DNA from: Paracholeplasma brassicae
GTDB lineage: Bacteria; Bacillota_I; Bacilli_A; Acholeplasmatales; UBA5453
Reading direction: 5' to 3'
Assembly: GCF_000967915.1 (NCBI RefSeq)
Contig: NC_022549.1
Location: 1,662,366 to 1,726,365, forward strand
Length of the DNA: 64,000 nt
Under the pieces are notes generated by a model. It ran no database searches. It saw nothing but the letters and a program-made list of their open reading frames with translations, and was not told the origin of the DNA. Positions 7,114 to 54,839 of this stretch are shown here, one piece after another (the stretch's first letter is position 1; each line of letters begins with the position of its first letter). A program made the position numbers and the translations under genes.

Positions 7114-9459
7114 TTACCCTACCTTTTCAGGTTTGTGATAAAAATAGCCTTGCTGAATGTAAATACCTAAGGCTTTGAACTTATCTGAGATTTCAATCGT
7201 CTCTACTTTTTCAATCACAATGTCTTTTTGTCCTTTGTGTGCGATGTCTTTTAATGTTCTAACAATGTCAAGAATCGTTGGTGACTGTATGTTTGTAGCA
7301 AATACGCCATCCAGTTTAAGGATGTCAAAAGGGACTTGATCTAGGATCCCTAAAGACGAATACTTAGACCCAAAATCATCGATTGCGATACGAAAGCCAT
7401 AGCGTTTGAACTTATTGATTGTTTCAATGCATAAATCGGTATTTCGGATAAACGTATTTTCGGATATTTCGATACAAACGTCATCGGTTTTAAGCCCACT
7501 TGAAATGGTTTTTTCAAGGACCAGTAATTCAAAATTGGTTTTAAAGAGTGCCGCAGGTGATAAGTTTAAATTTAAAATCGCCTTTGGGTAGTCTTTTTTT
7601 AGATACCGACTAAATTTCTTGATGGCAAGTTGTACTAAGTAGTCTTCAAGATAATCAATCAAATTGGATTTGGATGCCAACTCAAAAAACTCGTCAGGTG
7701 AGACAAACCCAAGCTCTGGATCAATCCATCTTGCGAGCGCTTCAATGTATCTCACCTCATTTGTTCTAGTATCAACGATTTTCTGATAATACACATCAAT
7801 TTGTTTGTTCTCGATTGCTTGATATAGCTTACTTGCCATGTTGATGTTTTTCTTTAACGCAAACCCGTGGGATTCTTCGTATTTCACAATCACGTTATGT
7901 TCACTTTGAGATGCCTCATTATTGGCGACCGCTGCTTGTGTGATTAGTTCAAACAAATTGACTGGTTCTTGGCTGATTCTAGAAAAACCAATGTTTTGTT
8001 TGACGTTTATCTCTGTGTCGATGATGTGATATTTTTTGTAGACCGAACGATTCGCGTGATCAATCACATCAAAAATGAGTTCTTCTTTTGGTTCGAGTAA
8101 AACTAAGATGAAGTGATGATAGCTGATGTTTGCTACGATAAACCCTTCTTTTTTGTAGATTAAAAATTCTTTTCCAATTTCTTGAATGAGTTTATCAATA
8201 AACTGGATGCCATAAAAGGCTTTAATTGAATTGATTTTTGAAATGCTTGCGTAAAAACAAACCGCGTCTTTCACTGGTTTTAGTTTCGAGATGTGTTCTT
8301 CAAGTCCTTGTTGATTGTAAAACGCATTCAGTGTATTGTGTGTCGCTAAATACGCTAAACGATCGTTTAAGGCTTTAAGCTCTGTGACGTCTTGATAGAT
8401 CACCACCATGTGATCATTAAATGAGGGATAGGCCGTAATCATGCAATAACGACCGTTTCTTGTAATTCGTCTTTCAAACGATACGGGTTTATTGGTTTTT
8501 CTTGCGTCTAAATAGATTTCAATGCGGTCTAGGTAGTCATTAGGAATTAAGTCCTTTGCCGTTTTTTCAAGTAACTCCTTTTTCGAAACCGAGACGACAT
8601 CAACAAAATACTCATTAATATAGATGTGCTTATAATCGACGATTTTGTCGCCTTCATAGATGAATTCAATCTCAATCACACCAACTTTAAGGTTTTTTAA
8701 CAATTCCATCCGTAGGTGATTTTCTTCGTACATCGTTTTTTCTAAACTTTCAAAATCGGTATAATCAAAGGCCAAAATGACGTGTGTGAAATCAACCAAA
8801 TAAGAGCCCTTGATTTGCATCGTCAATTCGATTTTTTGCTCAAATAGTCTTATATGAAACACGTCATTATTTAAAAAAGCCTTTTGTTTGATTGCTTCAT
8901 CAAATCTCAAGTGCTCTTCTTCAACTACCCAATTTCTAAACTCATCTAAATCAATCGAAATCGTTTGTTTTAACAAACAATAAGCCTCTTTCAAGAACTC
9001 AGAAAATTCCATTTCTACCAGACGCTTTTTATAGTCAATCCGTATTAAAATCGACTGATTATAGTCAAATGCCGCTTTTCTAAGACTTTGATTTTTCTGA
9101 TAGTTTTCATTCTCAAAGTAGACTAAGTAGCCCAATAAAACGTAATTGACCCCAAAAATAAAATGAATGATGAGGTGCATTATATCATTTGATTTAAACC
9201 ATTCATGAAGCGTGGTTAATTCACTTATTAATTGAAATAAAACAATTAGTGAAACTAACCCTGTGATTACTTTAACCCTTAGCCCTTTATCTAAGAAATC
9301 TCTAAACAATAGAAATATCATCAACAATAAAACACCAGTGAGTAAAAATGCTGGGGTGTTGTCGTGAATAAAAGGATTAAAATACATCAGTAGATAGCTA
9401 CTTGAATAAAGAAGCGAAATGCCAAGAAAGATTAAACGACGGTTCGTTAGTTTACTCAT
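7114..9459 (-). CDS. Membrane c-di-GMP phosphodiesterase: PAS-like, degenerate GGDEF, EAL
   Basis: 781 residues. Four predicted transmembrane helices (1-115), a PAS-like region (about 250-360), a degenerate GGDEF domain in which the GGDEF motif is replaced by NISYHHFILV, and a C-terminal EAL domain (about 535-780). EAL residues are conserved: YIEALARW, LNLNLSP, EISE, IAIDDFG, LKLDG, VIEKVE and QGYFY. It is therefore probably an active phosphodiesterase, with the GGDEF part structural or regulatory. GGAGGG precedes the ATG. It overlaps the upstream diguanylate cyclase gene by 8 bases. Confidence 0.9.
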   Translation of the reverse strand: MSKLTNRRLIFLGISLLYSSSYLLMYFNPFIHDNTPAFLLTGVLLLMIFLLFRDFLDKGLRVKVITGLVSLIVLFQLISELTTLHEWFKSNDIMHLIIHFIFGVNYVLLGYLVYFENENYQKNQSLRKAAFDYNQSILIRIDYKKRLVEMEFSEFLKEAYCLLKQTISIDLDEFRNWVVEEEHLRFDEAIKQKAFLNNDVFHIRLFEQKIELTMQIKGSYLVDFTHVILAFDYTDFESLEKTMYEENHLRMELLKNLKVGVIEIEFIYEGDKIVDYKHIYINEYFVDVVSVSKKELLEKTAKDLIPNDYLDRIEIYLDARKTNKPVSFERRITRNGRYCMITAYPSFNDHMVVIYQDVTELKALNDRLAYLATHNTLNAFYNQQGLEEHISKLKPVKDAVCFYASISKINSIKAFYGIQFIDKLIQEIGKEFLIYKKEGFIVANISYHHFILVLLEPKEELIFDVIDHANRSVYKKYHIIDTEINVKQNIGFSRISQEPVNLFELITQAAVANNEASQSEHNVIVKYEESHGFALKKNINMASKLYQAIENKQIDVYYQKIVDTRTNEVRYIEALARWIDPELGFVSPDEFFELASKSNLIDYLEDYLVQLAIKKFSRYLKKDYPKAILNLNLSPAALFKTNFELLVLEKTISSGLKTDDVCIEISENTFIRNTDLCIETINKFKRYGFRIAIDDFGSKYSSLGILDQVPFDILKLDGVFATNIQSPTILDIVRTLKDIAHKGQKDIVIEKVETIEISDKFKALGIYIQQGYFYHKPEKVG

Positions 9460-11077
9460 GTTTAAACCCTCCGACTTCTAGATAAACTCGCTTTTTATCT
9501 TCATACATTCTTAAATCACTTTCTTTAATTACTGTGTAAATATCCGTTGTTGGTTTTTCTTCAATGTAATACCCGATGGCAAGCGCCAATAATGAGCCCT
9601 GTTTTCGATTGGTGATTTGTTTGGTTTTAAATTGATTAACCTTTGATTCGATGATGTCTTTGCTCGTATTTTTCATGATGATCACAAACTCATCGCCACC
9701 GGTTCTAAAACAAATACCATCACTAAAGAACTCGCGAATGAGACTCGAAGCTTCCTTAATCAAAAGGTCACCCCTTACATGACCAAAGACGTCATTGACT
9801 TCTTTTAGGTAGTTTAGATCACAAGATAGCACCCCTAGTGGGTAACTTGAATCGATGACTAACTCCGGTGTGATTTTTTCAAAATAATGACGATTATAAA
9901 AACCGGTGAGCTGGTCGTGATAACTCAAGTACTCCACCTGTTTTAAGTGGTTATAATGATGGGTTACGTCTCTTGCTGAGGCATATATCTTTCCATCATA
10001 GGCGTACGTACGCCACTCTAAATACTTATAGGACCCATTCTTACAAACGTAGCGATTAATGAAATTTGAAATGCGTTCGTTATCAAATATGACTTCACGG
10101 TTCGTCTTTTTGGTGCGTTCTAGATCCTCAGGATGGACAAATTCAAAATAGGATTTGCTCATCAATTCTTCTTTTGAAAACCCTAGTGTTTTTTCCCAGG
10201 TGTCATTTAATTTGATAAAGTAGCCTTCCTTATTCGCAATCGCAAGTAAATCTAGACTCACATCAAAAAACGTTTCATTTTCTTTTCTTGACTCCAATAG
10301 TTCATGGTAAGTATCCACTAACTTTGAAACATCCCTTAAGATACCAGCGTAGCCAACGGGTTGATCATCCTCATAAATGGTTGTTGCTGAGGTCTCAAAA
10401 TACCGCCACTGCCCTTTGTTTGTGATTAAACGAAATGAGCTAATTTCATGATGCTTGTTGGAATCCTTAATAATTTCAAAAAATGTGTTAATCTTTGGTA
10501 AGTCACTTGGGTGCACATAACCTTTAAAGGCGGTACCCATGCCTTCATTTAGAGAAAAGCCAAGTCGTTGTTCAAAAGCTTTCGATAAATAGGTAAAGTT
10601 ACCATTTAATGATAGCCTGTAAATGACATCTTTTGTGTTGTTAATAATCTCGTTTAGATTTTTTTCATTTTCTTCTTTGACTTGATGTTCAATTTTTGAG
10701 TCATTAATGTCAATGTGTGCCCCAATCACAATTAGAGGTTTGCCTAAGTCATCTTTTTTGATGACTTTTCCCATATCTAGAACCCAAATCAACTGGCCAT
10801 TTTTATGTTTAATTCGTACTTCTACTTTGTAAAAAGGCGTCTTACCTGAAAGTAAATCATCAACGGCCATTTTGGCTTTATCTTGGTCTTTTTCGTAGAC
10901 AAAATCAAACCACGTATCCACGGTAATAGGTTCTAATGTCTTTCGATCATACCCAATCATCTCTAACCAGCGATCGTTAATGGTTAACTCATTGGTTTTG
11001 ATATTCCAAATCCAAGTTGCAGCACCCATCGCTTCTGTGATTAATTTTTCATATGCTAAATTATCTATGTCCTGCAT
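9452..11077 (-). CDS. Soluble diguanylate cyclase: three PAS domains plus GGDEF
   Basis: 541 residues, no transmembrane segment. Three PAS repeats (about 8-130, 140-255, 270-380), each with the PAC-type YRYLEWR or WVLDMGKV strand, then GGDEF (about 385-540) with an intact FRTGGDEFVIIM active site. GAGGTGATCAG precedes the ATG. The next gene on the strand is the EAL phosphodiesterase, overlapping by 8 bases, so one mRNA carries a synthase and a hydrolase of c-di-GMP. No RxxD inhibitory site is evident before the GGDEF motif. Confidence 0.92.
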   Translation of the reverse strand: MQDIDNLAYEKLITEAMGAATWIWNIKTNELTINDRWLEMIGYDRKTLEPITVDTWFDFVYEKDQDKAKMAVDDLLSGKTPFYKVEVRIKHKNGQLIWVLDMGKVIKKDDLGKPLIVIGAHIDINDSKIEHQVKEENEKNLNEIINNTKDVIYRLSLNGNFTYLSKAFEQRLGFSLNEGMGTAFKGYVHPSDLPKINTFFEIIKDSNKHHEISSFRLITNKGQWRYFETSATTIYEDDQPVGYAGILRDVSKLVDTYHELLESRKENETFFDVSLDLLAIANKEGYFIKLNDTWEKTLGFSKEELMSKSYFEFVHPEDLERTKKTNREVIFDNERISNFINRYVCKNGSYKYLEWRTYAYDGKIYASARDVTHHYNHLKQVEYLSYHDQLTGFYNRHYFEKITPELVIDSSYPLGVLSCDLNYLKEVNDVFGHVRGDLLIKEASSLIREFFSDGICFRTGGDEFVIIMKNTSKDIIESKVNQFKTKQITNRKQGSLLALAIGYYIEEKPTTDIYTVIKESDLRMYEDKKRVYLEVGGFKHE

Positions 11078-11151
11078 CTGATCACCTCATGACTTCTAAT
11101 ACTTTATTTTACCACGAATGAAAACAGATTGATTTCTAAATGATTATCCGA

Positions 11152-11180
11152 TAAAAAAAAATAGCCATGATTAGTGGCTA
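11152..11180 (-). terminator. Intrinsic terminator after the large membrane protein gene
   Basis: Minus-strand stem TAGCCA/TGGCTA (11162-11167 with 11175-11180) followed by nine T's, directly downstream of the stop at 11191. Confidence 0.85.
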
Positions 11181-11190
11181 CTTTAAACGA

Positions 11191-13140
11191 TTAATGCTCG
11201 ATGTTCTTCTTGAAAACTAAAAAACTAGATAGACCAAATAACAACACATAAATAACCGTCATCAATGTTAAAATAAACAAATAAATATAGGCATTGATTA
11301 AGAAGAAAAAGCCAAACCTCACATAAAAATAAATCGCTAGTAGTCCGTTTGAAACTAGAAAGGAAAATAATACCCTACTTCGGTTTTGATTAATGTAGTT
11401 TCTAAGTGACTCAATGTAGTTTTGACCTTTTACTTGTTTAAACCGCTTGTTGGTATATAGATACAAGTAAATCATATATAAAAATACCACCATCAACAAG
11501 ATCACTAAGTTATTTAAAACAGACGTTTGATAGTCTTGTTTAATGCCTTCTAAGTACTGACGGTGACTATGGACACTCGTGGCTTTATCTATGCCTACGA
11601 TCTCAATAATTTGATCCAAATCAGAAGCTGATACCGGTTTTTCAAACGTTAGCTTCATTAAACTGATGTCACTTTTTGACCCAATCAGATTTTCGTAGTC
11701 GCTAATAAAAATGTAGGCTTGACTAAAATCAATCTGAGCTTCAATGTTGTTATGACCTCTAGTCTTGAGGTACTCAATCACATGAAGTCGTTCGTTTGTT
11801 TCTCTGATGACTTTATAGACATTAAATAAGACGATTTTGCCTTCGATCCATAGTTCAACGGTTTTACCAACCGCATTTTTTTGATTGAATAACTTGATTG
11901 CAGCCGTTTCATCGATGATGATTGGATTTGTTGGATTCACATTTTTTGACTCATAAAGAACCTGTGTTTCTTGAACGTTATAATAATAGTCATGAACACC
12001 CGTTTTATAAATCACACCTGAATCAAAGTAGTTATCAGATACGACATTTAGATTGATGCCATTTCCGATGCCATCGACGTTTTGGTCTATATAAGAGACT
12101 TCATACGAGTCACTAAGACTAAGTGTGCTTTGATGCTCAAAAAACGCGTACCGATCTAGAATAATGATGTTGTCTTCTAACCCTTTGATGTCATCGAGTT
12201 TTTCTTGTTGAGTTAACGTGATTGAGACAAACGTATACATCATAAGTATGCCGATTAGCGCGGTAACGATTAAAAATACCGCTTCAAACTTAAACCCCTT
12301 GATGAATGCTAAAAATCGTTTAAGTTCAGCGACAAACCGCTTTTTATTGAATAGCAACTCTGTTTTTTTTGTATCAAACAAGCCAAACGAGTAGGTAATC
12401 ACACTTAAGGCAAATACCCCAATAAAAAACAACAGTTGATAGACCCAAAGCGGTTCGTAAAACACATGAATCACACCCACAAGTGAACTGTAGTTAATTT
12501 TGATCATGGTCTCAATTAAGAAATAAAACCCTAATAAGAATACCCCTTGAACAAACGACCCTAACTCGTCAGTAAACGTTTGTTTATCCCGATGCCTAAC
12601 TAGCATTCGAGCCACTAAATAAATCAGACCGATAATAACAGCTAGTATCACCAAACTCGTATTTAAATAGTGCTGATGATCGAAAAACATATGATCATAA
12701 TTGTGGCGCATGCTAAGCATCACAACTAAAAATATCACATAAACCAAGTTAACGGCCTTTGTGATTAAAGCATAAAGTGTGTAGGTAACCATTAAAAGCA
12801 CATAAAGATAAATCATGAACGCATAAGGCGTAAAAGAGAAACTTAACTGATAAAAACCAACCGATACTAAAAAGAGTAGTTTAACGGGTTTACTGATGCG
12901 TTTCGTTCGAATTATACCTAAAATCAAATCAATTAAGTCAAAACTCAATAATAGCCCAACAATAAAACTGATATAGCCATAGTTAATGAATGCTTTCGCA
13001 CGTTCTTCAATAAAATAGGCGGATAACTCGCCTAATAGATTATCCTCTAGGTGCACGTGTCCTAAAAAGTAATAGCCAAGAAAAAAAAGAATGATACCTA
13101 AAACATAAGACAAGCGAAACCACTTTAATTTCTTTTTCAT
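11191..13140 (-). CDS. Polytopic membrane protein with large extracytoplasmic domain, FtsX/MacB-like layout
   Basis: 649 residues. Seven or so N-terminal transmembrane helices (1-260), a further helix near 288-312, an extracytoplasmic region of roughly 220 residues (312-535), and three C-terminal helices. The helix, large outer domain, three-helix arrangement from 288 on resembles FtsX/MacB-type permeases, but no ATPase is adjacent and I cannot confirm the family. GGGTGATTAA precedes the ATG. It has its own terminator and appears to be a single-gene unit. Confidence 0.6.
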   Translation of the reverse strand: MKKKLKWFRLSYVLGIILFFLGYYFLGHVHLEDNLLGELSAYFIEERAKAFINYGYISFIVGLLLSFDLIDLILGIIRTKRISKPVKLLFLVSVGFYQLSFSFTPYAFMIYLYVLLMVTYTLYALITKAVNLVYVIFLVVMLSMRHNYDHMFFDHQHYLNTSLVILAVIIGLIYLVARMLVRHRDKQTFTDELGSFVQGVFLLGFYFLIETMIKINYSSLVGVIHVFYEPLWVYQLLFFIGVFALSVITYSFGLFDTKKTELLFNKKRFVAELKRFLAFIKGFKFEAVFLIVTALIGILMMYTFVSITLTQQEKLDDIKGLEDNIIILDRYAFFEHQSTLSLSDSYEVSYIDQNVDGIGNGINLNVVSDNYFDSGVIYKTGVHDYYYNVQETQVLYESKNVNPTNPIIIDETAAIKLFNQKNAVGKTVELWIEGKIVLFNVYKVIRETNERLHVIEYLKTRGHNNIEAQIDFSQAYIFISDYENLIGSKSDISLMKLTFEKPVSASDLDQIIEIVGIDKATSVHSHRQYLEGIKQDYQTSVLNNLVILLMVVFLYMIYLYLYTNKRFKQVKGQNYIESLRNYINQNRSRVLFSFLVSNGLLAIYFYVRFGFFFLINAYIYLFILTLMTVIYVLLFGLSSFLVFKKNIEH

Positions 13141-13294
13141 TTAATCACCCAATTCCTCTACGTAATTCCATTATAGCACTAACAAATAATATTTATCATC
13201 TTCTTTTCATAAAATAGCTTATCCTGATTAGTTTATTTGTTTTCTAACTGGGTAAGTTACAAGAAGTCTTTGAAACACCGATAAATATAAAGAA

Positions 13295-13338
13295 CCTCAA
13301 TCACAAGACCAATACCTTGAACGGCCGTTTGATTGAGG
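13295..13338 (-). terminator. Hairpin downstream of the FGE-like gene, possible terminator
   Basis: CCTCAATCA (13295-13303) pairs with TGATTGAGG (13330-13338) over a 26-base loop that itself can fold. On the minus strand it follows the stop at 13357, but the T tract after it is weak. Confidence 0.45.
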
Positions 13339-13356
13339 CATTAATCCTTATATTTT

Positions 13357-14499
13357 TTAATTTGTTCTTGCTAAACGAAACCCAAGGTCTTCCATGCGAG
13401 TGATTGAATCAAGTGAAAAACTAATGCCTGTCACAGCGTCTTTTCGTAGCGTTGTGTAAGAACCGCCTCTAGTTACCGTCATAAACGAATCAGAATAACT
13501 GGTTGTTGTGATTGTCCACTCTCGAACGTTACCGCTCATATCAAAGAAACCCATGTGGTTGGCTTGTTTTAAACCCACGTTCATTGTTTTTGGTTGATCT
13601 GGGTATGCCCCGCCATAAATCCAAGCAATCAAATGGTGCTCACTAAAATCAGACGAACTCATGCTTGCCCCACTTAAAAAGTCAGATGGGATGTAGTAAT
13701 TACCGGCCACATTGATGGTGTAGGTCTGTTCCGCAGGGACTCTTCTAGCCGCAAATTCCCATTCATTAGAGGTTGGCAAACGAAAGCCACCTTGATCATC
13801 AATGATTAAACCTTTAAGTGTATTGACGTAATCATCGACTTTCTTTAACACGTTAAACGACTCATCGTAATAGACTGGGACTAACCCCATCATTTCGGAG
13901 TAAGCATTTGAAAAAAGAATGGCATCGATTAGATTCACTTCGACCACTGGTTCATATAAACGGACTTTATCGTTTGAGCCAAACACATAAGAACCCGCCT
14001 TGCCTTTTTGAAAATCATAACCATTTGCCTTTGCGTATTCGTATACTTCAAAGTATAAGCCTGCAGTCACCTCAGACATACCAAGTTCATAACCGCCATC
14101 TATGGTTGCTTGACCATAACTTCCCGTTGGCATTGTGTAAGTATTTCCTTCGGACACAGGTTTAAAAGCGTAGTTTTGAATGTATCTTGGATAAACATCG
14201 ATGTTTGACTTTGAGGTTAATAGCGATTGGCTATCTTTGTCAAATGGTTGTTGGTAACGATTAGAAATATACCAGCCGACAAACGAATGACCTTCTTTTT
14301 CGAGTGGTTCTGGTACCATGATTTTAGCATCAAGTTCTAAATCCACTGTAATTGTTGACTGATCGATTTGATGAAAATTCAACTGGTAAATGATTGGTTC
14401 TTCATCCTTTGGATCTTTATTCTCATTTGGTGTTTTATCGTAACACGCACTAAGTAGTCCTAAACATAAAACAAGCAATAATAACGTTACTTTTTTCAT
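13357..14499 (-). CDS. Lipoprotein with InlB-type repeat and FGE/SUMF1-like domain
   Basis: 380 residues. Lipoprotein signal MKKVTLLLLVLCLGLLSAC with Cys 19. One Listeria-Bacteroides (InlB B) repeat (about 40-108, EKEGHSFVGWYISN) is followed by a formylglycine-generating-enzyme-sulfatase fold domain (about 120-380): GGFRLPTSNEWEFAARR, HMGFFDMSGNVREWT, TRGGSYTT and LGFRLAR. The only Cys in the protein is the lipidated one, so the copper/cysteine chemistry of true FGE is absent; it is more likely a binding or structural member of the family. AGGAGGTAGAA precedes the start. Confidence 0.85.
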   Translation of the reverse strand: MKKVTLLLLVLCLGLLSACYDKTPNENKDPKDEEPIIYQLNFHQIDQSTITVDLELDAKIMVPEPLEKEGHSFVGWYISNRYQQPFDKDSQSLLTSKSNIDVYPRYIQNYAFKPVSEGNTYTMPTGSYGQATIDGGYELGMSEVTAGLYFEVYEYAKANGYDFQKGKAGSYVFGSNDKVRLYEPVVEVNLIDAILFSNAYSEMMGLVPVYYDESFNVLKKVDDYVNTLKGLIIDDQGGFRLPTSNEWEFAARRVPAEQTYTINVAGNYYIPSDFLSGASMSSSDFSEHHLIAWIYGGAYPDQPKTMNVGLKQANHMGFFDMSGNVREWTITTTSYSDSFMTVTRGGSYTTLRKDAVTGISFSLDSITRMEDLGFRLARTN

Positions 14500-38148: not shown

Positions 38149-38253
38149 ATGAAGTTGTCCGTGATTACTGCCTTTTGTTGAATACTGCTTAACTAAAATC
38201 TTAAGTCTCTATTCTATATTGGAACAATTTATGAGGCAATGCACACTATATTA

Positions 38254-38324
38254 CAAAAAAACTGCAACTTTTCTCACATAGTTAATTATGTGTAAAAAGT
38301 TGCAGCCACTAATTTAAACTTTTA
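38254..38324. repeat. Palindromic repeat unit, copy 1
   Basis: 44-base near-perfect palindrome 38262-38305 (arms CTGCAACTTTT and AAAAGTTGCAG) preceded by seven A's and followed by CCACTAATTTAAACTTTTA. A second unit with the same flanks is at 46452-46521, but the middle of the palindrome is inverted there. It abuts an IS66-like terminus at 38325. Confidence 0.75.
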
Positions 38325-46444: not shown

Positions 46445-46521
46445 CGCTCACAAAAAAACTGCAACTTTTTACACATAAATAACTATGTGAGAAAAGTTGC
46501 AGCCACTAATTTAAACTTTTA
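46445..46521. repeat. IS66-like terminus and palindromic repeat unit, copy 2
   Basis: CGCTCAC (46445-46451, GTGAGCG on the minus strand) looks like an IS66-family end. It is followed at once by AAAAAAA and the 44-base palindrome 46459-46502, then CCACTAATTTAAACTTTTA, the same outer sequence as copy 1 at 38254-38324. The inside of the palindrome is reversed relative to copy 1 (one mismatch). Confidence 0.7.
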
Positions 46522-46571: not shown

Positions 46572-46841
46572 TCATTTACTAGAATTCCTAAAATAATTAT
46601 ATATATAGATATTTGGTAACGCTAATGTAAACCACCATATTAAAAGATATATAAATATTGGTACATCATATTCTATAAGTATAATAGAAACGATTGAAGT
46701 TGACATAAAAGTCATAAAAAAGATACCTTGTTTTATACTACTTTCTTGGTTATGCACTTGAAAGTTTCTCTTTTTAATGAACAATACATATACTAAAATA
46801 ACAAAAAGTAGTATAGGTAGTCCTATTTGAATGTATATCAT
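46572..46841 (-). CDS. Small three-helix membrane protein
   Basis: Start placed at the ATG at 46841 (MIYIQIGLPILLFVILVYVL) with GAGGAG eight bases upstream. About 89 residues, three predicted helices. It follows the 175-residue membrane protein in the RHS orphan module, so it could be part of an immunity set. Not recognised. Confidence 0.5.
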   Translation of the reverse strand: MIYIQIGLPILLFVILVYVLFIKKRNFQVHNQESSIKQGIFFMTFMSTSIVSIILIEYDVPIFIYLLIWWFTLALPNIYIYNYFRNSSK

Positions 46842-46862
46842 ATACATCACTCCTCTCATAGA

Positions 46863-47426
46863 TTATAGTAAAGACTTCTTTAATTCTTGTTGAGCATTTT
46901 TGTCAATGAGATTTTCCAATAGAATATTTAATATTCTTTCTTTGGCCTTTGTGTCTATAACCGATAAATCTACAAAGAATACAAATCTAACTGATTTGCT
47001 GTTCGAAAAGAAGATGCCATTTAAATCACTTCTATATGTAATATGCTTGATTGAGTTTAATAAGGATGACTTTTTTGAATTATCTTTCCCAATATATGCT
47101 ATTTGATCTTCATCTATAACAACACCATACTTTATTATATTCTTATTTCTATATAGTTTTTCTGTTTGTCTTTTTAAAGCATAAATTTGAAGTTCTTCAC
47201 CCTTCAAAATCATAGATACTAGAAAGAGTAAGAGAATACAATTTGTTAGTAAATATAAAATATTTAGTTTGGGAACGATAGAGAATATTAAACCGATAAG
47301 AACCAATATAGTTAGAATTGAAAATACTTTATAGGCTGTCTTTTTTCTAAATGAATATGCATATATTACATTTTCTCTGGCTAAATTCAAAGCCTTTTAC
47401 TTGTCAATCTCATAATTATACTCCAT
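46863..47426 (-). CDS. Membrane protein after the RHS orphan tip, possible immunity protein
   Basis: The open frame 46863-47390 starts at a TTG without a ribosome binding site. A better start is the ATG at 47426 (GGAGGATTAAA upstream), which reads MEYNYEIDK, then an in-frame TAA (47397-47399), then KALNLARENVIYAYSFRKK in the same frame. So a nonsense codon may have cut the gene. The body has two helices (about 20-65) and a soluble domain (GIFFSNSKSVRFVFFVDLSV) like PH/YcxB-type proteins. Its position right after an RHS C-terminus fits an immunity role, which is inference. Confidence 0.5.
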
Positions 47427-47436
47427 TTTAATCCTC

Positions 47437-48513
47437 CTATAAGTTTAAGAATTTTATATATGATGCTAATGCAGGAACAGCAACTTTTAATAATAACGGT
47501 GCTAAGTAGGGAGCAAAGTATATTACTGCAGCAACAACTAATATTGCAACTCCAACAGTAACATATCCTCCAATAACTCCCCAATCAACACTTTTTATTT
47601 TTTCTTTTGCATACTCATATCCTTCTATGGCAACTGTTGCTAGTGCTAATGGAATTGGTCTAATACCAAAAGTTGTTGTGTTTGTTGTATTGCCTATCTG
47701 TGTTTAATGGCCGAATGATAAGAACAACTCTGTATCTTTACTAAATCCACCAGAAATATTAAACGTACTATTGATACCTACAAGATTGAGCAATGATGGT
47801 ATCTTGATTGAACCAACTCCATCGCTCCATTTAGCATCCCATAGTTTATCAATTTCACCAGTTCTGAATTGGTTTTCTATAAAACCAAACCCATAGTCAA
47901 ATTTGATGTCTACCTTTTCTAGAAAATAGTCGACTACTTTGTTTACTACTTTTTTAGCATAATCTTTGACTTTGCCCCAAAGCTTTTTAAAGTTAAACTT
48001 GCCACTTGTATCAAATCCGTGAACTGGATTGTTAGCGCAATATGCAAACAGATTAATACCGTCAACGTTTCCTGGTTCTAAATACAATGTATGATCCATA
48101 TTAATAAATCTTGATAATAATGGACTGTAATATCTGCTTTCTAGACAGTACCACTCAGTTTCTACATCATAATAATATCCCTTGTATCTAAATGGGTTAA
48201 TATTACCAATAAATGATGAACGTGTGTTTTCTGCATTTGATGAATCATATACCTTATGATTACCCCATGCATCATATTTATATGTTACCACAATCTTACC
48301 ATTAACATCAATAATATTTCTAATAATTCCGAGTAAATCTCTTACATAAAAATACTTGTTTGACTGATGTTCAAATCCAACTAGTTGGTTTTGCTCATTG
48401 TAGATGAAGTGCATGGTTTGACCATTCTTTTCTTCTGCAATGATATTAGTGCCTTGTAGATAATACTTAGTTTCAACACCATTGATGTTTTTGATGTATT
48501 TTAGATCAATCAT
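47437..48513 (-). pseudogene. Orphan RHS C-terminal module with in-frame stop
   Basis: The frame begins abruptly after an IS66 remnant with RHS repeats (YYLQGTNIIAEEKNGQTMHF, YKYDAWGNHKVYDSS), the RHS core (FRYKGYYYDVETEWYCLESR, YYSPLLSRFINMDH, NLFAYCANNPV), and then a variable tip from about residue 150. A TAA at 47704-47706 interrupts the frame, after which TQIGNTTNTTTFGIRPIPLA and a hydrophobic tail (YVTVGVAILVVAAVIYFAPY) continue in the same frame to a TAG at 47437. It lacks the N-terminal shell and looks like a displaced toxin tip used for recombination into the main RHS gene. Confidence 0.7.
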
Positions 48514-48797
48514 GATTTAAGTGCTTGTAGGAACTGAGGTAAATCACTAAGCTCAACACGAACTAAATGCCCACTTAGTTTAAATGAAATCTCTCTTGTT
48601 TTAATCAGTTCCGTCACGTTGATGAGTGGGGATTTGTTTGATGAATCTTCCTTCGTCGTTTTAAGCCACTTATGAATCACCGAAACAGAAACACCATGTT
48701 TGATTGAAATTGATTTAACGCTTAATCCACTTAGTCGTTCTTTTATGATCTTATTTTTGAATGTTTGATCGTATGCTTTTGCCATATCATTTACCAC
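48510..48797 (-). CDS. tnpA: IS66-family accessory protein TnpA
   Basis: 95 residues: MAKAYDQTFKNKIIKERLSG, VSVSVIHKWLK (helix-turn-helix), and the IS66 TnpA ending LSGHLVRVELSDLPQFLQAL. A terminal repeat GTGAGCG lies 60 bases upstream on the same strand (48861-48867). TnpB and TnpC, which should follow, are missing, and the RHS fragment begins at the stop codon. So this is a deletion remnant. Confidence 0.8.
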   Translation of the reverse strand: MVNDMAKAYDQTFKNKIIKERLSGLSVKSISIKHGVSVSVIHKWLKTTKEDSSNKSPLINVTELIKTREISFKLSGHLVRVELSDLPQFLQALKS

Positions 48798-48840
48798 CTT
48801 ATCTTTTTATAGATATTGTAGTATTTGTCAAACATCATTG

Positions 48841-48867
48841 GAAGAACGGGTTATTTTAAACGCTCAC
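48841..48867 (-). repeat. IS66-like terminal inverted repeat
   Basis: GTGAGCGTTTAAAATAACCC on the minus strand, just upstream of tnpA. The first 14 bases (GTGAGCGTTTAAAA) recur at 46438-46451 on the minus strand and at 51633-51646 on the plus strand. Confidence 0.65.
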
Positions 48868-48993
48868 AAAAAACAAAAATAAATCTTATATTTTAATATC
48901 AATAATTCAGCTTCACAGGATTAAATAAAAAATCAAAGGCTATCACAATGATGATTCACCCTTGATTAGTTTATGAAATGTAAAATTTAAATC

Positions 48994-49494
48994 TTATTCA
49001 TTTTGATACTTTTCCATGTAAGGTTCAATTCGGTTTGATAATTCATACCAGTTTTCTGATAATGCCGAAATTTTAAGAATACATTTTTTATCAACATAAA
49101 TATCAATTCTAGCAGGCGTTACTACACATTTGCATTCAGTGTATTCATATTGAATCGATTTACCAAACATACTTCTATAGATAAATTCATGATCGCCAAT
49201 TCTGATTTCCCAAACAATGTAGTACCAAATAAATGTAATACCAAATAAAGTCATAAGTATAGATAATACAAAAAACATCACTAATATTTCAACCCCACCT
49301 GTAGTTGGTAGAAACGGCATTGATATACCCAAAATTACGAATATAATAGAGACAAAAATTCCTCCTCTAAGAATCATAAGAGGTTGCTTAATAATATTGC
49401 TATTAGATTTGGGCTTAGCTTTATAACCATATCTCATAAGTCCTAAAATAAATATCGTTAATGCAATAAAGATGTACCTTGATACATTGTCCAT
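48994..49494 (-). CDS. Membrane protein, candidate RHS immunity protein
   Basis: 166 residues. Three predicted helices (about 5-22, 45-65, 70-95) and a soluble C-terminal domain (EIRIGDHEFIYRSMFGKSIQ, ...KISALSENWYELSNRIEPYM). It starts 20 bases after the stop of the RHS gene, the usual place of a cognate immunity gene. The PH-like tail recalls DUF6560-type proteins, but I am not sure of the family. Confidence 0.55.
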   Translation of the reverse strand: MDNVSRYIFIALTIFILGLMRYGYKAKPKSNSNIIKQPLMILRGGIFVSIIFVILGISMPFLPTTGGVEILVMFFVLSILMTLFGITFIWYYIVWEIRIGDHEFIYRSMFGKSIQYEYTECKCVVTPARIDIYVDKKCILKISALSENWYELSNRIEPYMEKYQNE

Positions 49495-49513
49495 TTGTTA
49501 CCCTCCCATTTTC

Positions 49514-51514
49514 TTAAATTAATTCATCCAAAATCGATGAAACAACATCCCATATAATATTTTTCTTAATATCCTTGTTACCTGAGTTTAAAAGTCTTGA
49601 TACATACTTGTTCATTTGTTTGTTCAAGTTTTTAATATGTCTTGCTTTACTATTCGGATTACTTTGTCTAACTCTAACTTTTTGAATGTTAGTTAGTCTA
49701 CCATGCTGTACTCCAGGTCCACTGATGAATCCAAATAAAGCACCTGTTGCACCTGATCCAATCACTCTACCCCATTCAATAGGGCCTACAGAAACTAGTT
49801 GTGAAGCAAGTTCACCAGCAGATCCTGTTATTCCACCTGCAATAGTCATGCCTAATCTACCGATTGCAGAACCACCAAAAGCACCCATTACACCACCTAT
49901 TGCTATATCTATGAAAAGTTGTTGAGGATCAACTTCACCGGTAGTTATTAACTGGGTAACGACGGAAGTTGCTCCGCCTATCCCAGCTCCAACGCCAGCT
50001 CCCACAAGTACTAGAGGGCCTAAGCCAGCAGTCGCTACAGAAACTGCGGCAATTACTATTACAGCTGCGACAACAACAATTGCTGTCGTTAACCACTTAG
50101 GCCAGTTTCTACTATCGTCTACTAGATTTACAGGATTGTTCTCACAATATGCGAATAAATTAGTGCCATAAATATCACCAACATCACCGGTTTCACTATC
50201 TGAATTTATGAATCTTTGGATTTTTGAATCGTAGAATCGATTCTTTAAATAATACCATCCAGTTTCTTCATCTAAGTAATACCCTTTGTAGATAAAACTA
50301 TTTAATTCTGCAATAATTTCGCCAGTAGTATTTGGTGTATAAACTTTGTTAAGTAATCTACCCTTTGCATCATATTTATATGATACCATAACTACTTTAT
50401 TTTCATCAACTATTTCTGTGATGATGCCAAGCAAGTCTCTAATATAATAATACATTTTGCTCAGGTATTCGAACCCTACTAGAAGTCCTCTTTCATTATA
50501 GATATATCTAGTTGTTATCGTTCCATTCTTTGTTTCTGAAATGATGTTTGATCCATTGAGTTCATAGGTTGTGATATCACTACCTACAATCTTTTTAGTT
50601 CTAATACCTGCTTCATTGTAGAAATACTCGATATTATCTTTGTTTGGTTCAGTGATTGCTGTTAATCTTCTACCTGACCATGTTAACGATTTACTTCCAA
50701 TTTGACTTGGATTTCCAATAAAATTACTACCAGCATATGAGATGGTTTCTGTACTATCTTCAACATTATCAACATACTTAATGATTCTAGTTAATTGATC
50801 TTTCCAAGCGTTATCATGCTTATATTCATAAGACTCATTTGGTGTTAGTTGAGTTGAAAGTGGTTGATTGCCGTTATAGTATTTCTTGAACTGGATATTG
50901 TTATTACCAGTATAGGTCATAATTAACGTTCTACCAAGTGGTTGTCCATCAATTGGATTGTATTCTCTAACCAACCGGTTCAAGTAATCATACTCATATT
51001 CATAGGTACCATCAGGCGTAATCATTGAAGTTACATTTCCTAGGGCATCATACGAGTAAATAACGGTTGTACTGTCGTATTTTTGAATGGATTCTACTTG
51101 TAGGGATGATTTACCAGCACCTGGTGCTTTATAGGTATAACTGTTCTCTAATGTATGTAATCCAGTATTAATAACATCCTTGGTACTTCTACCTAGGTGG
51201 TCCACATAGGTTTTAACTGACATCATATGATTGGTTTGGCATAGTTTTGAGATAATGGTTGAATCAACCACATCATCTTTATAGGCGAGCATCTCTAGTT
51301 GTCCATTTAAGTGTTTATCTGGATTAAACCCATTTAGGTTTGACCCAACAACGGTTTGAGATCCTTCCAATGATAGGGTTGCAGTTTCAGTTTTTGTGTC
51401 TACACCATCGTAAACGTTATAGGTGTCTCCATCCCAAGTTAAGACAACGGTTTGCCATACATCCATTGGTACTACTGCATCTCTAACAAGGTGTTTAACA
51501 TTGTTTAGTGTCAA
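49514..51514 (-). CDS. RHS repeat protein with polymorphic C-terminal tip, 5'-truncated
   Basis: 666 residues. N-terminal LamG-like piece (VWQTVVLTWDGDTYNVYDGV, LNGQLEMLAYKDD), RHS/YD repeats (YSYDALGNVTSMITPDGTYE, FYNEAGIRTKKI), core SFIYKGYYLDEETGWYYLKN, RFYDSKIQRFINSD, NLFAYCENNPVNLVD, then a hydrophobic Gly-rich pre-toxin (about 475-615) and a basic tip (VRQSNPNSKARHIKNLNKQM...). RHS proteins carry toxins in this tip. The 5' end has no ribosome binding site and adjoins an IS66-like end at 51633, so the N-terminal part is probably lost. The tip family is not recognised. Confidence 0.8.
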   Translation of the reverse strand: MTLNNVKHLVRDAVVPMDVWQTVVLTWDGDTYNVYDGVDTKTETATLSLEGSQTVVGSNLNGFNPDKHLNGQLEMLAYKDDVVDSTIISKLCQTNHMMSVKTYVDHLGRSTKDVINTGLHTLENSYTYKAPGAGKSSLQVESIQKYDSTTVIYSYDALGNVTSMITPDGTYEYEYDYLNRLVREYNPIDGQPLGRTLIMTYTGNNNIQFKKYYNGNQPLSTQLTPNESYEYKHDNAWKDQLTRIIKYVDNVEDSTETISYAGSNFIGNPSQIGSKSLTWSGRRLTAITEPNKDNIEYFYNEAGIRTKKIVGSDITTYELNGSNIISETKNGTITTRYIYNERGLLVGFEYLSKMYYYIRDLLGIITEIVDENKVVMVSYKYDAKGRLLNKVYTPNTTGEIIAELNSFIYKGYYLDEETGWYYLKNRFYDSKIQRFINSDSETGDVGDIYGTNLFAYCENNPVNLVDDSRNWPKWLTTAIVVVAAVIVIAAVSVATAGLGPLVLVGAGVGAGIGGATSVVTQLITTGEVDPQQLFIDIAIGGVMGAFGGSAIGRLGMTIAGGITGSAGELASQLVSVGPIEWGRVIGSGATGALFGFISGPGVQHGRLTNIQKVRVRQSNPNSKARHIKNLNKQMNKYVSRLLNSGNKDIKKNIIWDVVSSILDELI

Positions 51515-51632
51515 TGGCGTTTTTGAAAATGTATTAAGAAATGCTTAACTACTTCAAATCGTTCTCTATCTGTATCATGTTTTCCTGTCTGTTTCCTTAA
51601 CATCTTTTGATGGTTTAAGTGTAGGAAAAAAA

Positions 51633-51646
51633 GTGAGCGTTTAAAA
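51633..51646 (+). repeat. IS66-like terminal repeat
   Basis: GTGAGCGTTTAAAA on the plus strand, identical to the ends at 46451 and 48867 read from the other side. It would be the right end of a minus-strand IS66 remnant extending to about 53.5 kb, into which the IS3 element inserted. Confidence 0.6.
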
Positions 51647-51731
51647 AAGCACGTCCCATATAAAGTAAAAACCTCTAGGCCCGATTTTTGGCTATCTGAA
51701 CCGCCCCCTGTCAAGTAGACAGTGGAAATAA

Positions 51732-52661
51732 TTAAATAACTGATTCAATTTTTAAGGCTTGATTCCGAAATTCCATCGGAGTTAAGCCTTTTAGTTTTTC
51801 TTGGTACCTTTGTTTATTATAAAACTGGATGTATTGATCAATCGCTACTTTGAGTTGATTGATGTCGTGAAACTGGGTTAAATAGTACATTTCTGATTTA
51901 AGTGTACCCCAAAAACTCTCCATCGGTCCATTATCAATACACCTACCAACTCTAGACATACTGACTGTCATGCTTCTAGAAGTGAGCTTCTTTTGAAACA
52001 CTTTATTCGTATATTGATACCCGCGGTCACTGTGTACCATCGGTTTGGCTTCCGGATTAAGTTGGAATGCTTTCTCGAAGGTTTCATTTACCAGTTGGTT
52101 ATTATTCGATATACCCATTTTGTAACTGATAATACTGGTATCACACAGATCGATGATGGCACTTAAGTATAACTTAGTATTCGATCCAATCACCTTGAAC
52201 TCGGTAACGTCTGTTAACCATTTCTCATTGGGATTATTAGCCTCAAATTGTCTGTTTAAGACATTCTCTGCTGTGATCTCTGGTCTTACTTTAATATACC
52301 CCTTACGCACTCTACGGATAACCGACGATACACCTAATTTCTTCATCAATCGTCTGATGCGTTTTACATTATAGTTCGTTTGATTCCGCTTATTAATCCA
52401 TAAAGTCATCCGTCTATAGCCTAAGATACCTTTAAACTCATCATGATATTCAAGAATCAATTGAGATAACTCATGATTAATCTTTTCTTCATTTGTTTCT
52501 TCATGTTTTAACCACTTATAATAGCTGCTACGAACAATCAAAAGGATTTCACATAACACCAAAATAGGATAGTTTTTTGCCTCATGAAGCCCTTTTATCG
52601 TTTTGTATTTGGCTTCTTGGCGGATCTTGCTAAAATATCCCTCCTTTCGATCTCCTGGAAT
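51732..52661 (-). CDS. IS3-family transposase OrfB, copy 2
   Basis: Identical to the OrfB of copy 1, including the complete DDE triad (TDVTEF, HSDRGYQYT, ESFWGTLKSE). It is reached from OrfA through the -1 frameshift at the seven-A run (complement of 52661-52667). Confidence 0.9.
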   Translation of the reverse strand: MPGDRKEGYFSKIRQEAKYKTIKGLHEAKNYPILVLCEILLIVRSSYYKWLKHEETNEEKINHELSQLILEYHDEFKGILGYRRMTLWINKRNQTNYNVKRIRRLMKKLGVSSVIRRVRKGYIKVRPEITAENVLNRQFEANNPNEKWLTDVTEFKVIGSNTKLYLSAIIDLCDTSIISYKMGISNNNQLVNETFEKAFQLNPEAKPMVHSDRGYQYTNKVFQKKLTSRSMTVSMSRVGRCIDNGPMESFWGTLKSEMYYLTQFHDINQLKVAIDQYIQFYNKQRYQEKLKGLTPMEFRNQALKIESVI

Positions 52662-53314
52662 TTTTTTATGACTTCAGCCTCCATCTCCAGACGTTCATTC
52701 TTCCGTCTTAGAAGCTCAACTTCACGTTTTAGTTTCTCAATTTCACTTAGATTCTCTACAGGCTTTCTCTTGCCTCGTTCGTCCTTTAAACCAGCTTCAC
52801 CTTCTACGTTGTATTTTCTGACCCAGTTATACACTTGTGAGTAGGCTGTCTCAAACTTCTCCGCTGCGAGTTTATATTCAAAGTTATGTTCAATCGTCCA
52901 TTTCACTATATCTAACTTTTCTTCATAACTCACTTTTCTTGATTTCGCCATATAAACATACCCCTTTGGATCATACGCTTTGATCTCGTTATGTCTATTA
53001 TACTTGGAAACCCAACTCTTAATCATTGAGTCTGATGTTATTTGATATTGTTTGGCCAGTTCTGCGTATGATCCTTTGCCATCGTGGTAAGCTTTAATCA
53101 CCTCTAATTTGAATGATTTCATATAACTTTGGTTTCTTGGTTTATCCTCAAATGCCATACTTCCCATCGATTCATAGTTCCTGACCCATTGTTTAACACT
53201 GGATACGTCACATCCTAATTCACATGCGATTTCTAACATTGACTTGATTCCTGTTTGATATGCTTTGATTGCTTTGATTTTTGTTTCTTTACTGAATCTT
53301 GGTGTTCTTGACAT
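52595..53314 (-). CDS. IS3-family transposase OrfA, copy 2
   Basis: Identical to OrfA of copy 1: three helix-turn-helix units and a C-terminal coiled coil. Start at the ATG at 53314 after AGAGGGG. It reads towards the left. Confidence 0.9.
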   Translation of the reverse strand: MSRTPRFSKETKIKAIKAYQTGIKSMLEIACELGCDVSSVKQWVRNYESMGSMAFEDKPRNQSYMKSFKLEVIKAYHDGKGSYAELAKQYQITSDSMIKSWVSKYNRHNEIKAYDPKGYVYMAKSRKVSYEEKLDIVKWTIEHNFEYKLAAEKFETAYSQVYNWVRKYNVEGEAGLKDERGKRKPVENLSEIEKLKREVELLRRKNERLEMEAEVIKKFQEIERRDILARSAKKPNTKR

Positions 53315-53408
53315 AAGAAAAATCCCCTCTCTGTACACTTCTACAAACTTTAATTATTTGTAGTGTCTACTTTAAGGGGATCATATCAATCTAGAGGTTT
53401 CTTTCATT

Positions 53409-53510
53409 TTAAATTGACATCTTGATGTTGTTATCCCATGGGAGTAAATGAGCCATCATCTTAAATTTATCATTTAATTTGACTGGGTATTGAAACTCAC
53501 TTTCAGCAAT
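53409..53510 (-). pseudogene. C-terminal remnant, probably of a transposase
   Basis: About 34 residues open on the minus strand (RIAESEFQYPVKLNDKFKMM, AHLLPWDNNIKMSI, stop TAA). No start. The LLPW ending near an IS66-type terminus (51633) suggests IS66 TnpC, but this is weak. Confidence 0.3.
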
Positions 53511-53814: not shown

Positions 53815-54504
53815 TCACTTTGCCTTGTGATAAGCATATTTGTATTGATCCATGTGGTAATCTTTAATTTGAGTATATTTTTCTTTATTATCAATATCTA
53901 CTTTGTTTGATACAGCATCAACTAATATGTTTTGTAAATATTGATACTCTGCATACTGTCCTAATGAAGCCATCACAAGGGCATTCCTAAAATACTTAGC
54001 GTGATGAGAAATTAGTCTAGCATTGAAATCATACCCATATTGCTTTAAAAATAGGTAAGCAAATGCTGCAACTGTTCTTGTGTTCCCTTCTCTAAATGGG
54101 TGTACTTTCCAAACATCAGCAATCATTCGAGTAAATAAATGAATGAAGTCCTCTTTCTTCAGTAAAATCCACTCGGTTTTAAAATATTGACGATCTATAT
54201 GAGTGAATTCGTTGATAATACTCATATGTGCTGTATATTCAACGCTCTTGCCATTGATGATAGGTTCTTCTTTATAGATGTCAATTTTTCTTGTTTCTCC
54301 AGCCCAATCATAAACATTCTCAAACAATTTCTTATGGATTTTCAAGACATCTTTTGATGTATTTATCTTGAACGAATCTTTGATTAATGAAATCAAAGCA
54401 AGATTTGTCATACGGTTCTCAAACTCATCAAGTTTGTCTTTATCTTTAATGTTAGCTTTGTTGATTAAAACATCAGAGTCTTTGTAAATATATGGATCTT
54501 TCAT
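53815..54504 (-). CDS. fic: Fic-domain toxin
   Basis: 229 residues. Fic motif HPFREGNTRTVAAF, with upstream LFENVYDWAGETRKIDIYKE (the flap and beta hairpin region) typical of the VbhT/Fic class. It should transfer AMP (or another nucleotide part) from ATP onto target proteins such as gyrase or topoisomerase IV. Its start overlaps the stop of the upstream antitoxin gene at 54504. No inhibitory helix is apparent in the protein itself, so inhibition would come from the partner. Confidence 0.9.
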   Translation of the reverse strand: MKDPYIYKDSDVLINKANIKDKDKLDEFENRMTNLALISLIKDSFKINTSKDVLKIHKKLFENVYDWAGETRKIDIYKEEPIINGKSVEYTAHMSIINEFTHIDRQYFKTEWILLKKEDFIHLFTRMIADVWKVHPFREGNTRTVAAFAYLFLKQYGYDFNARLISHHAKYFRNALVMASLGQYAEYQYLQNILVDAVSNKVDIDNKEKYTQIKDYHMDQYKYAYHKAK

Positions 54505-54821
54505 TATAAGTTTCTTCCAAGTGCAAATACTGCTGTTTCATAATCAATCAAGTCTTGAGCGTATAAGCCTAGTATTCGATTTGCATAAGAAGATACTTCT
54601 TTCCCACCAGTTAAATTAATCGCGTTTGCTAGCATTTCAATTTCTTTAGCTTTCTCTTGACTTGGTAAAACCACTTCAAAAGGAATGCCTCTTTTAGATT
54701 CTATTTGCTTTAAGTATATATTAACGGCATAGGATAAAGTAATCCCCAAATCACTTAGAATCGATTCAACATTGTTCTTTAAATCATCAGAAACTCTGAC
54801 ATGAATAACATCATTTCTCAT
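54504..54821 (-). CDS. RelB/DinJ-like antitoxin with VbhA-like tail
   Basis: Start at the ATG at 54821 (MRNDVIHVRVSDDLKNNVES) after GAGGTGG. About 105 residues: ribbon-helix-helix DNA-binding N-terminus of RelB/DinJ type (SYAVNIYLKQIESKRGIPFE) and a helical C-terminus (SYANRILGLYAQDLIDYETA) resembling the VbhA antitoxin domain that blocks Fic proteins. A strict (S/T)xxxE(G/N) motif is not visible; TGGKEV is the closest. Encoded directly upstream of fic with a one-base overlap. Confidence 0.75.
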   Translation of the reverse strand: MRNDVIHVRVSDDLKNNVESILSDLGITLSYAVNIYLKQIESKRGIPFEVVLPSQEKAKEIEMLANAINLTGGKEVSSYANRILGLYAQDLIDYETAVFALGRNL

Positions 54822-54839
54822 ACAATCCACCTCAATAGT

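Follow-up and report, generated by a model that had tools for sequence, protein, structure and literature searches.

The stretch of DNA analyzed here (hereafter, the window) comprises 64,000 nucleotides of Paracholeplasma brassicae, a bacterium without a cell wall, and corresponds to positions 1,662,366-1,726,365 of NC_022549.1, the single contig of a genome of 1,877,792 bp. Two open reading frames (ORFs) of the window, both on the minus strand, match the RHS-associated core profile TIGR03696 (E-values of 1.2e-16 and 5.6e-18), which agrees with the shared core described in the original prediction; YD repeats and the core were recognized at the locus with PF05593, TIGR03696 and TIGR01643, and profile searches of the whole genome with PF05593 and TIGR03696 returned these two places only. 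Each RHS ORF is trailed by genes for small membrane proteins, and insertion sequence (IS) remnants lie beside them, all of these features being on the minus strand. The full-length N-terminal delivery part present in relatives is absent from the locus. A Fic-domain protein and a RelB/DinJ-like partner, forming a toxin-antitoxin-like pair, are encoded upstream of the RHS locus (53815-54830). A terminator-like hairpin at 46450-46521 is duplicated within the window, flanks included, at ~38253-38324 (90%).

The first RHS piece (piece 1, 49514..51541) contains a lectin-like piece, YD repeats, the core and a C-terminal tip, as identified by Pfam and NCBIfam profiles and by DNA identity to the RHS gene of the Acholeplasmataceae bacterium UBA4853 (locus L003). 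A main RHS gene had been proposed at 49514-51514; alignment to intact homologues, which measure 2,262-2,273 residues, indicates instead a 5'-truncated remnant, retaining the C-terminal ~675 residues of a gene of ~2,270. The UBA4853 homologue, an open frame of 2,273 residues, displays 90.5% DNA identity to piece 1 over window positions 50244-51507, and the homology fades at ~51507-51538. The N-terminal 1,587 residues of the UBA4853 protein had no match anywhere in the whole genome; this search was carried out without a positive control, and the PF05593 and TIGR03696 searches, which included controls, agree with it.

The second piece (piece 2, 47440..48492) comprises the core and tip of another RHS lineage, is also 5' truncated, and carries an in-frame stop. 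Its core DNA matches, over 48492-48023, the RHS genes of the congeners G003, G004 and G008 (~88% identity; 87.9% to the G003/G004 core), rather than piece 1, and it is 91.8% identical over 47579-48492 to an intact RHS gene of 2,262 residues in G044, a genome from a different family of the order; an intact gene from another family encodes its tip (tip 2) with 96% identity at the amino-acid level. The RHS fragment originally placed at 47437-48513 was correctly credited with a core and a different tip, but it is not one open frame, as tip 2 is interrupted by a TAA at 47704-47706 where the intact homologue is open. Its 5' part is joined, at ~48500, to an IS66 tnpA remnant.

This IS66 5' remnant (48500..48867) includes a terminal repeat, GTGAGCGTTTAAAA, at 48854-48867 and tnpA at 48510-48797, and is 96% identical to C1:602845-603048, part of another IS66 remnant of this genome, in which both terminal repeats are preserved along with the transposase end (PF03050/PF13817, in its 3' part). 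On the other side of piece 1, ~95 bp beyond its 5' end, an IS66 3' remnant with its terminal repeat begins at 51633 (51633..51697), and its other half (53389-53500) lies past an IS3-family element (51697..53388), one of nine near-identical copies, that was inserted into it, as judged from the uninterrupted copy at C1:603317-603488. The IS3 element was ruled out as the cutter of the RHS gene, since it sits inside the IS66 remnant. These elements resemble known IS66 and IS3 members in their TnpA, DDE_Tnp_IS66 remnant and terminal inverted repeats, and in the multiple copies of the IS3 element; unlike known IS66, the IS66 traits are present here as fragments. We considered whether IS66 ends might have moved RHS tip modules as a mobile cassette, given that piece 1 and the intact membrane-protein gene after it (imm1, below) are flanked by right and left IS66 ends in direct orientation, and that related orphan tips in two other genomes (G035 and G036) likewise begin just past a shared repeated sequence. 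However, no target duplication was seen at the ends, ~95 bp of unassigned sequence separate piece 1 from the IS66 end at 51633, piece 2 is joined to an internal position of IS66, as a deletion would produce, and the genome holds no second composite copy, so that we judge a mobile cassette quite unlikely. The sequence common to G035 and G036 is 106 bp long and abuts two unrelated orphan cassettes (L136:10133-10238 and L137:8925-9030); part of it recurs elsewhere in those loci, and it may be an IS end.

At the nucleotide level, the detectable likeness between the two cores is limited to one stretch of ~124 bp at 71%, and their amino-acid identity is ~50%. The cores are therefore not recent duplicates, and the derivation of piece 2 from piece 1 by duplication was discarded on the basis of the protein identity and the different closest relatives. 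Further, the tips are unlike after the NNPV motif, as predicted, and a tip 1 query finds nothing in the tip 2 region. Under the reading first proposed, piece 1 would be delivered as a live main RHS gene and piece 2 would act as a reservoir from which an orphan tip recombines into it; the pieces share a strand and lie ~2.1 kb apart, an arrangement that relatives show with intact main genes. Nevertheless, piece 1 lacks ~1,600 N-terminal residues found in its homologues, the amino-acid identity of the cores is only ~50%, the pieces are cut-off ends of different lineages, and stops interrupt both tip 2 and the gene that follows it. This reading, already contradicted on these grounds, is highly improbable.

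Other features of the locus are those of polymorphic toxins, the kind to which it had been assigned: YD repeats, the core, tips exchanged behind the conserved core, and a layout of full-length plus orphan genes in relatives. By sliding identity, piece 1 remains near 90% to UBA4853 until ~50240 and falls to background beyond, which indicates that its 3' end, including tip 1, derived from elsewhere; together with the alignment, this places the putative exchange point at 50230..50250, inside the conserved core. The identity of piece 2 to the G044 gene falls at ~47580, and its last ~45-50 residues, as well as the next gene, differ. This hydrophobic variable end of tip 2 (47437..47580) resembles an orphan end in G050, with a score that was reached by none of 3000 shuffles. 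As a control, the RHS gene of G044 was compared with that of G004, a genome of a different family; ~85% DNA identity was found over most of their length and ~36% at the tip. This is the signature expected of polymorphic toxins, and it shows that noise does not account for the breaks in pieces 1 and 2. The same comparison displayed a second variable stretch within these otherwise conserved full-length genes, well ahead of the tip (L200:8195-8760). Pairwise dN/dS between the pieces and intact relatives ranged from 0.10 to 0.17, and between intact genes from 0.09 to 0.10; the pieces thus descend from constrained genes, and the closeness of both ranges points to an N-terminal loss that is recent on that scale.

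Tip 1 (49514..50113) is a candidate toxin tip with a long Gly-rich hydrophobic segment and a basic end of ~60 residues, recognized by homology to G035 (58% identity), G036 (61% over the C-terminal 98 residues) and G123 (34%); in G035 and G036, genomes from another family than the window host, the homologues are orphan tips. No relatives of tip 1 were found in viral contigs and plasmids. The gene that follows, imm1 (48994..49494), encodes an intact DUF6560 membrane protein (PF20197, 36 bits, cut-off 27.8) and is a candidate immunity gene to tip 1. DUF6560 relatives also lie directly after the tip 1 homologues of G035 (35% identity) and G036 (48%), and in all three loci the DUF6560 gene starts ~20 bp past the tip stop. 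The retention of this neighbor pair across families supports a cognate function, and these data support tip 1 and DUF6560 as a putative toxin-immunity cassette. It had been anticipated that finding the downstream membrane genes apart from RHS genes would speak against a toxin locus, and this holds in part, as DUF6560 is also encoded in genomes without an RHS core (e.g., G013, G017 and G026), but the specific pair with tip 1 is kept in G035 and G036. Moreover, DUF6560 follows other RHS-type tips (G019 and G356). The family is therefore broader than a partner of tip 1.

Small membrane-protein genes follow piece 2 as well, as predicted, but the first of them is damaged: in imm2a (46863..47426), which would encode a 2-TM-like protein and is a candidate immunity gene to tip 2, comparison with a G040 homologue (51% identity) reveals an in-frame TAA at 47397-47399. 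The G040 homologue belongs to an array encoding small membrane proteins. The imm2a protein also displays 32% identity to the product of the gene after the G044 RHS. The tip 2-imm2a neighbor pair recurs in G050, where it is damaged too, and this pairing is weaker than the tip 1-DUF6560 synteny. A further small membrane protein (imm2b, 46572..46859) was recognized by its ORF and hydropathy. AlphaFold single-sequence models of imm1 and imm2a (pLDDT of 59 and 55, respectively) were too poor for a fold search.

An intracellular use of the first module was also weighed, in which DUF6560 would counteract a truncated piece 1 produced in the cytoplasm, in line with a toxin-antitoxin proposal made for Salmonella rhs elements (PMC7043789). 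Tip 1 and imm1 are intact and adjacent, the pair was retained as an orphan in G035 and G036, and comparison of tip 1 and imm1 with G036 and G035 indicates constraint (dN/dS of 0.14-0.23, with synonymous sites near saturation). Furthermore, piece 1 is stop-free over ~675 codons, so that intracellular expression would still be possible, which counts against reading the locus as a remnant. Nonetheless, these dN/dS values chiefly record time before the truncation, and membrane immunity proteins commonly protect from toxins entering from outside (PMC12744356); we therefore find an intracellular toxin-antitoxin role unlikely.

The Gly-rich hydrophobic segment and basic end of tip 1, the hydrophobic variable end of tip 2 and the partner proteins, of membrane type by hydropathy, suggest a mode of action. 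By analogy with Tse5 and EsxX, the tips probably act on membranes. The GxxxG count of tip 1 is 10, against 5.4 expected in shuffles, 2% of which reach 10. Tse5 is a pore-forming Rhs toxin with a membrane immunity protein (PMC9637101, PMC10684867), and the locus would be alike in the mechanism suggested, in which an RHS carrier brings a tip that acts on membranes and the immunity protein is itself a membrane protein. The RHS core at the locus is matched in PDB chain 8cp6_B; however, homology to the Tse5 tip was found in no search, and the locus displays no evidence of type VI secretion. EsxX/TelE are glycine-zipper LXG toxins with membrane immunity (PMC12744356), and resemble the locus in the Gly-rich membrane segment, the membrane proteins as immunity and the orphan immunity islands, but the locus has an RHS rather than an LXG carrier and a different immunity family, DUF6560. 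Searches of the tips against Pfam, NCBIfam and PADLOC toxin profiles, as suggested in the original prediction, yielded no match at the curated cut-offs, nor any curated toxin family supporting membrane action, and returned weak matches at chance level; those of the tip 2 end (E above 0.05) were attributed to chance. A PDB profile match of tip 1 to designed armadillo proteins was dismissed as an effect of sequence composition, since it covers ~34 positions of repeat-like character and involves designed proteins only.

The closest anatomical parallel is found in the Rhs/WapA systems with orphan modules (PMC3150448, PMC3482391, PMC3967940), with which the locus shares YD repeats, a hyperconserved core and unlike tips, as well as an immunity-like gene after each tip, orphan modules and IS disruption. 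In CDI/Rhs systems, truncated modules without start signals have been described, some of them disrupted by IS elements, whose orphan immunity is still made (PMC3150448); the anatomy is the same as that observed here, which counts in favor of a remnant. Three differences separate the locus from these systems: its genome has no full-length carrier gene, its second module contains stops, and its host is wall-less.

Among relatives, RHS genes are far from uncommon, contrary to what had been stated for relatives of Mollicutes: within the order Acholeplasmatales, TIGR03696 has matches in 60 of the 160 genomes (40 of the 88 good ones) and in 18 of 28 genera. A search of a literature library recovered no report of RHS toxins in this order of wall-less bacteria. 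In several relatives a long RHS frame is followed by a short one on the same strand, 1.4-5.7 kb apart (e.g., G008:C33, G144:C73, G159:C27, and twice each in G034 and G152), and the window locus is, judging by its sequence, a broken instance of this common arrangement. Furthermore, UBA4853, G003/G004, G044, G014, G140, G141 and G150 have a Pol-beta-type nucleotidyltransferase gene immediately 5' of their full-length RHS gene, as does the Anaeroplasmataceae phage NatCom_34063. The gene was thus recorded in one phage and in at least seven genomes from several families (L003:2293-3216, L090:605-1552, L200:3486-4433, L206:7273-8214, L216:6977-7852, L224:2640-3536, L225:5699-6625 and L226:2760-3587). 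It is absent upstream of the remaining full-length RHS genes checked, and has been lost in the window. The Anaeroplasmataceae phage genome PV036447.1 (L206) contains a full-length RHS gene (8236-13746, 1,836 aa, annotated as hypothetical) with a gene for a small membrane protein after it, and phage tail genes beside the intact G044 RHS (L200:12192-16340) suggest prophage carriage.

Taken together, we consider it very likely that RHS polymorphic-toxin genes of two lineages have left a decaying remnant here, beside mobile DNA. In relatives, the full-length RHS protein would form a cage-like carrier, as in the known RHS family, with a short exchangeable C-terminal toxin tip, and the gene after the tip would encode the matching immunity protein. 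At the locus, two RHS genes have been truncated beside IS66 remnants, by ~1,600 and ~1,900 N-terminal residues, and one of these remnants later received the IS3 element. The modules may once have served for killing neighboring bacteria, and any present-day function would mainly be that of imm1 as orphan immunity; the occurrence of DUF6560 beyond RHS loci counts against the explanation as a whole. On the sequence evidence, the locus is a remnant of a member of the RHS polymorphic toxins, not a working one.

For the order as a whole, it is conceivable, and we propose it tentatively, that Acholeplasmatales wield a widespread RHS arsenal, partly phage-carried and partly nucleotidyltransferase-linked, with short membrane-active tips paired with DUF6560-like membrane immunity proteins, and with tips crossing families, of which this locus would be a decayed witness. 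Taken by itself, the locus is a damaged representative of an already known system. Through it, a testable function, immunity to one tip, can be proposed for the uncharacterized family DUF6560, and the conserved nucleotidyltransferase-RHS pair, also found in phage, calls for explanation and is perhaps more interesting than the locus.
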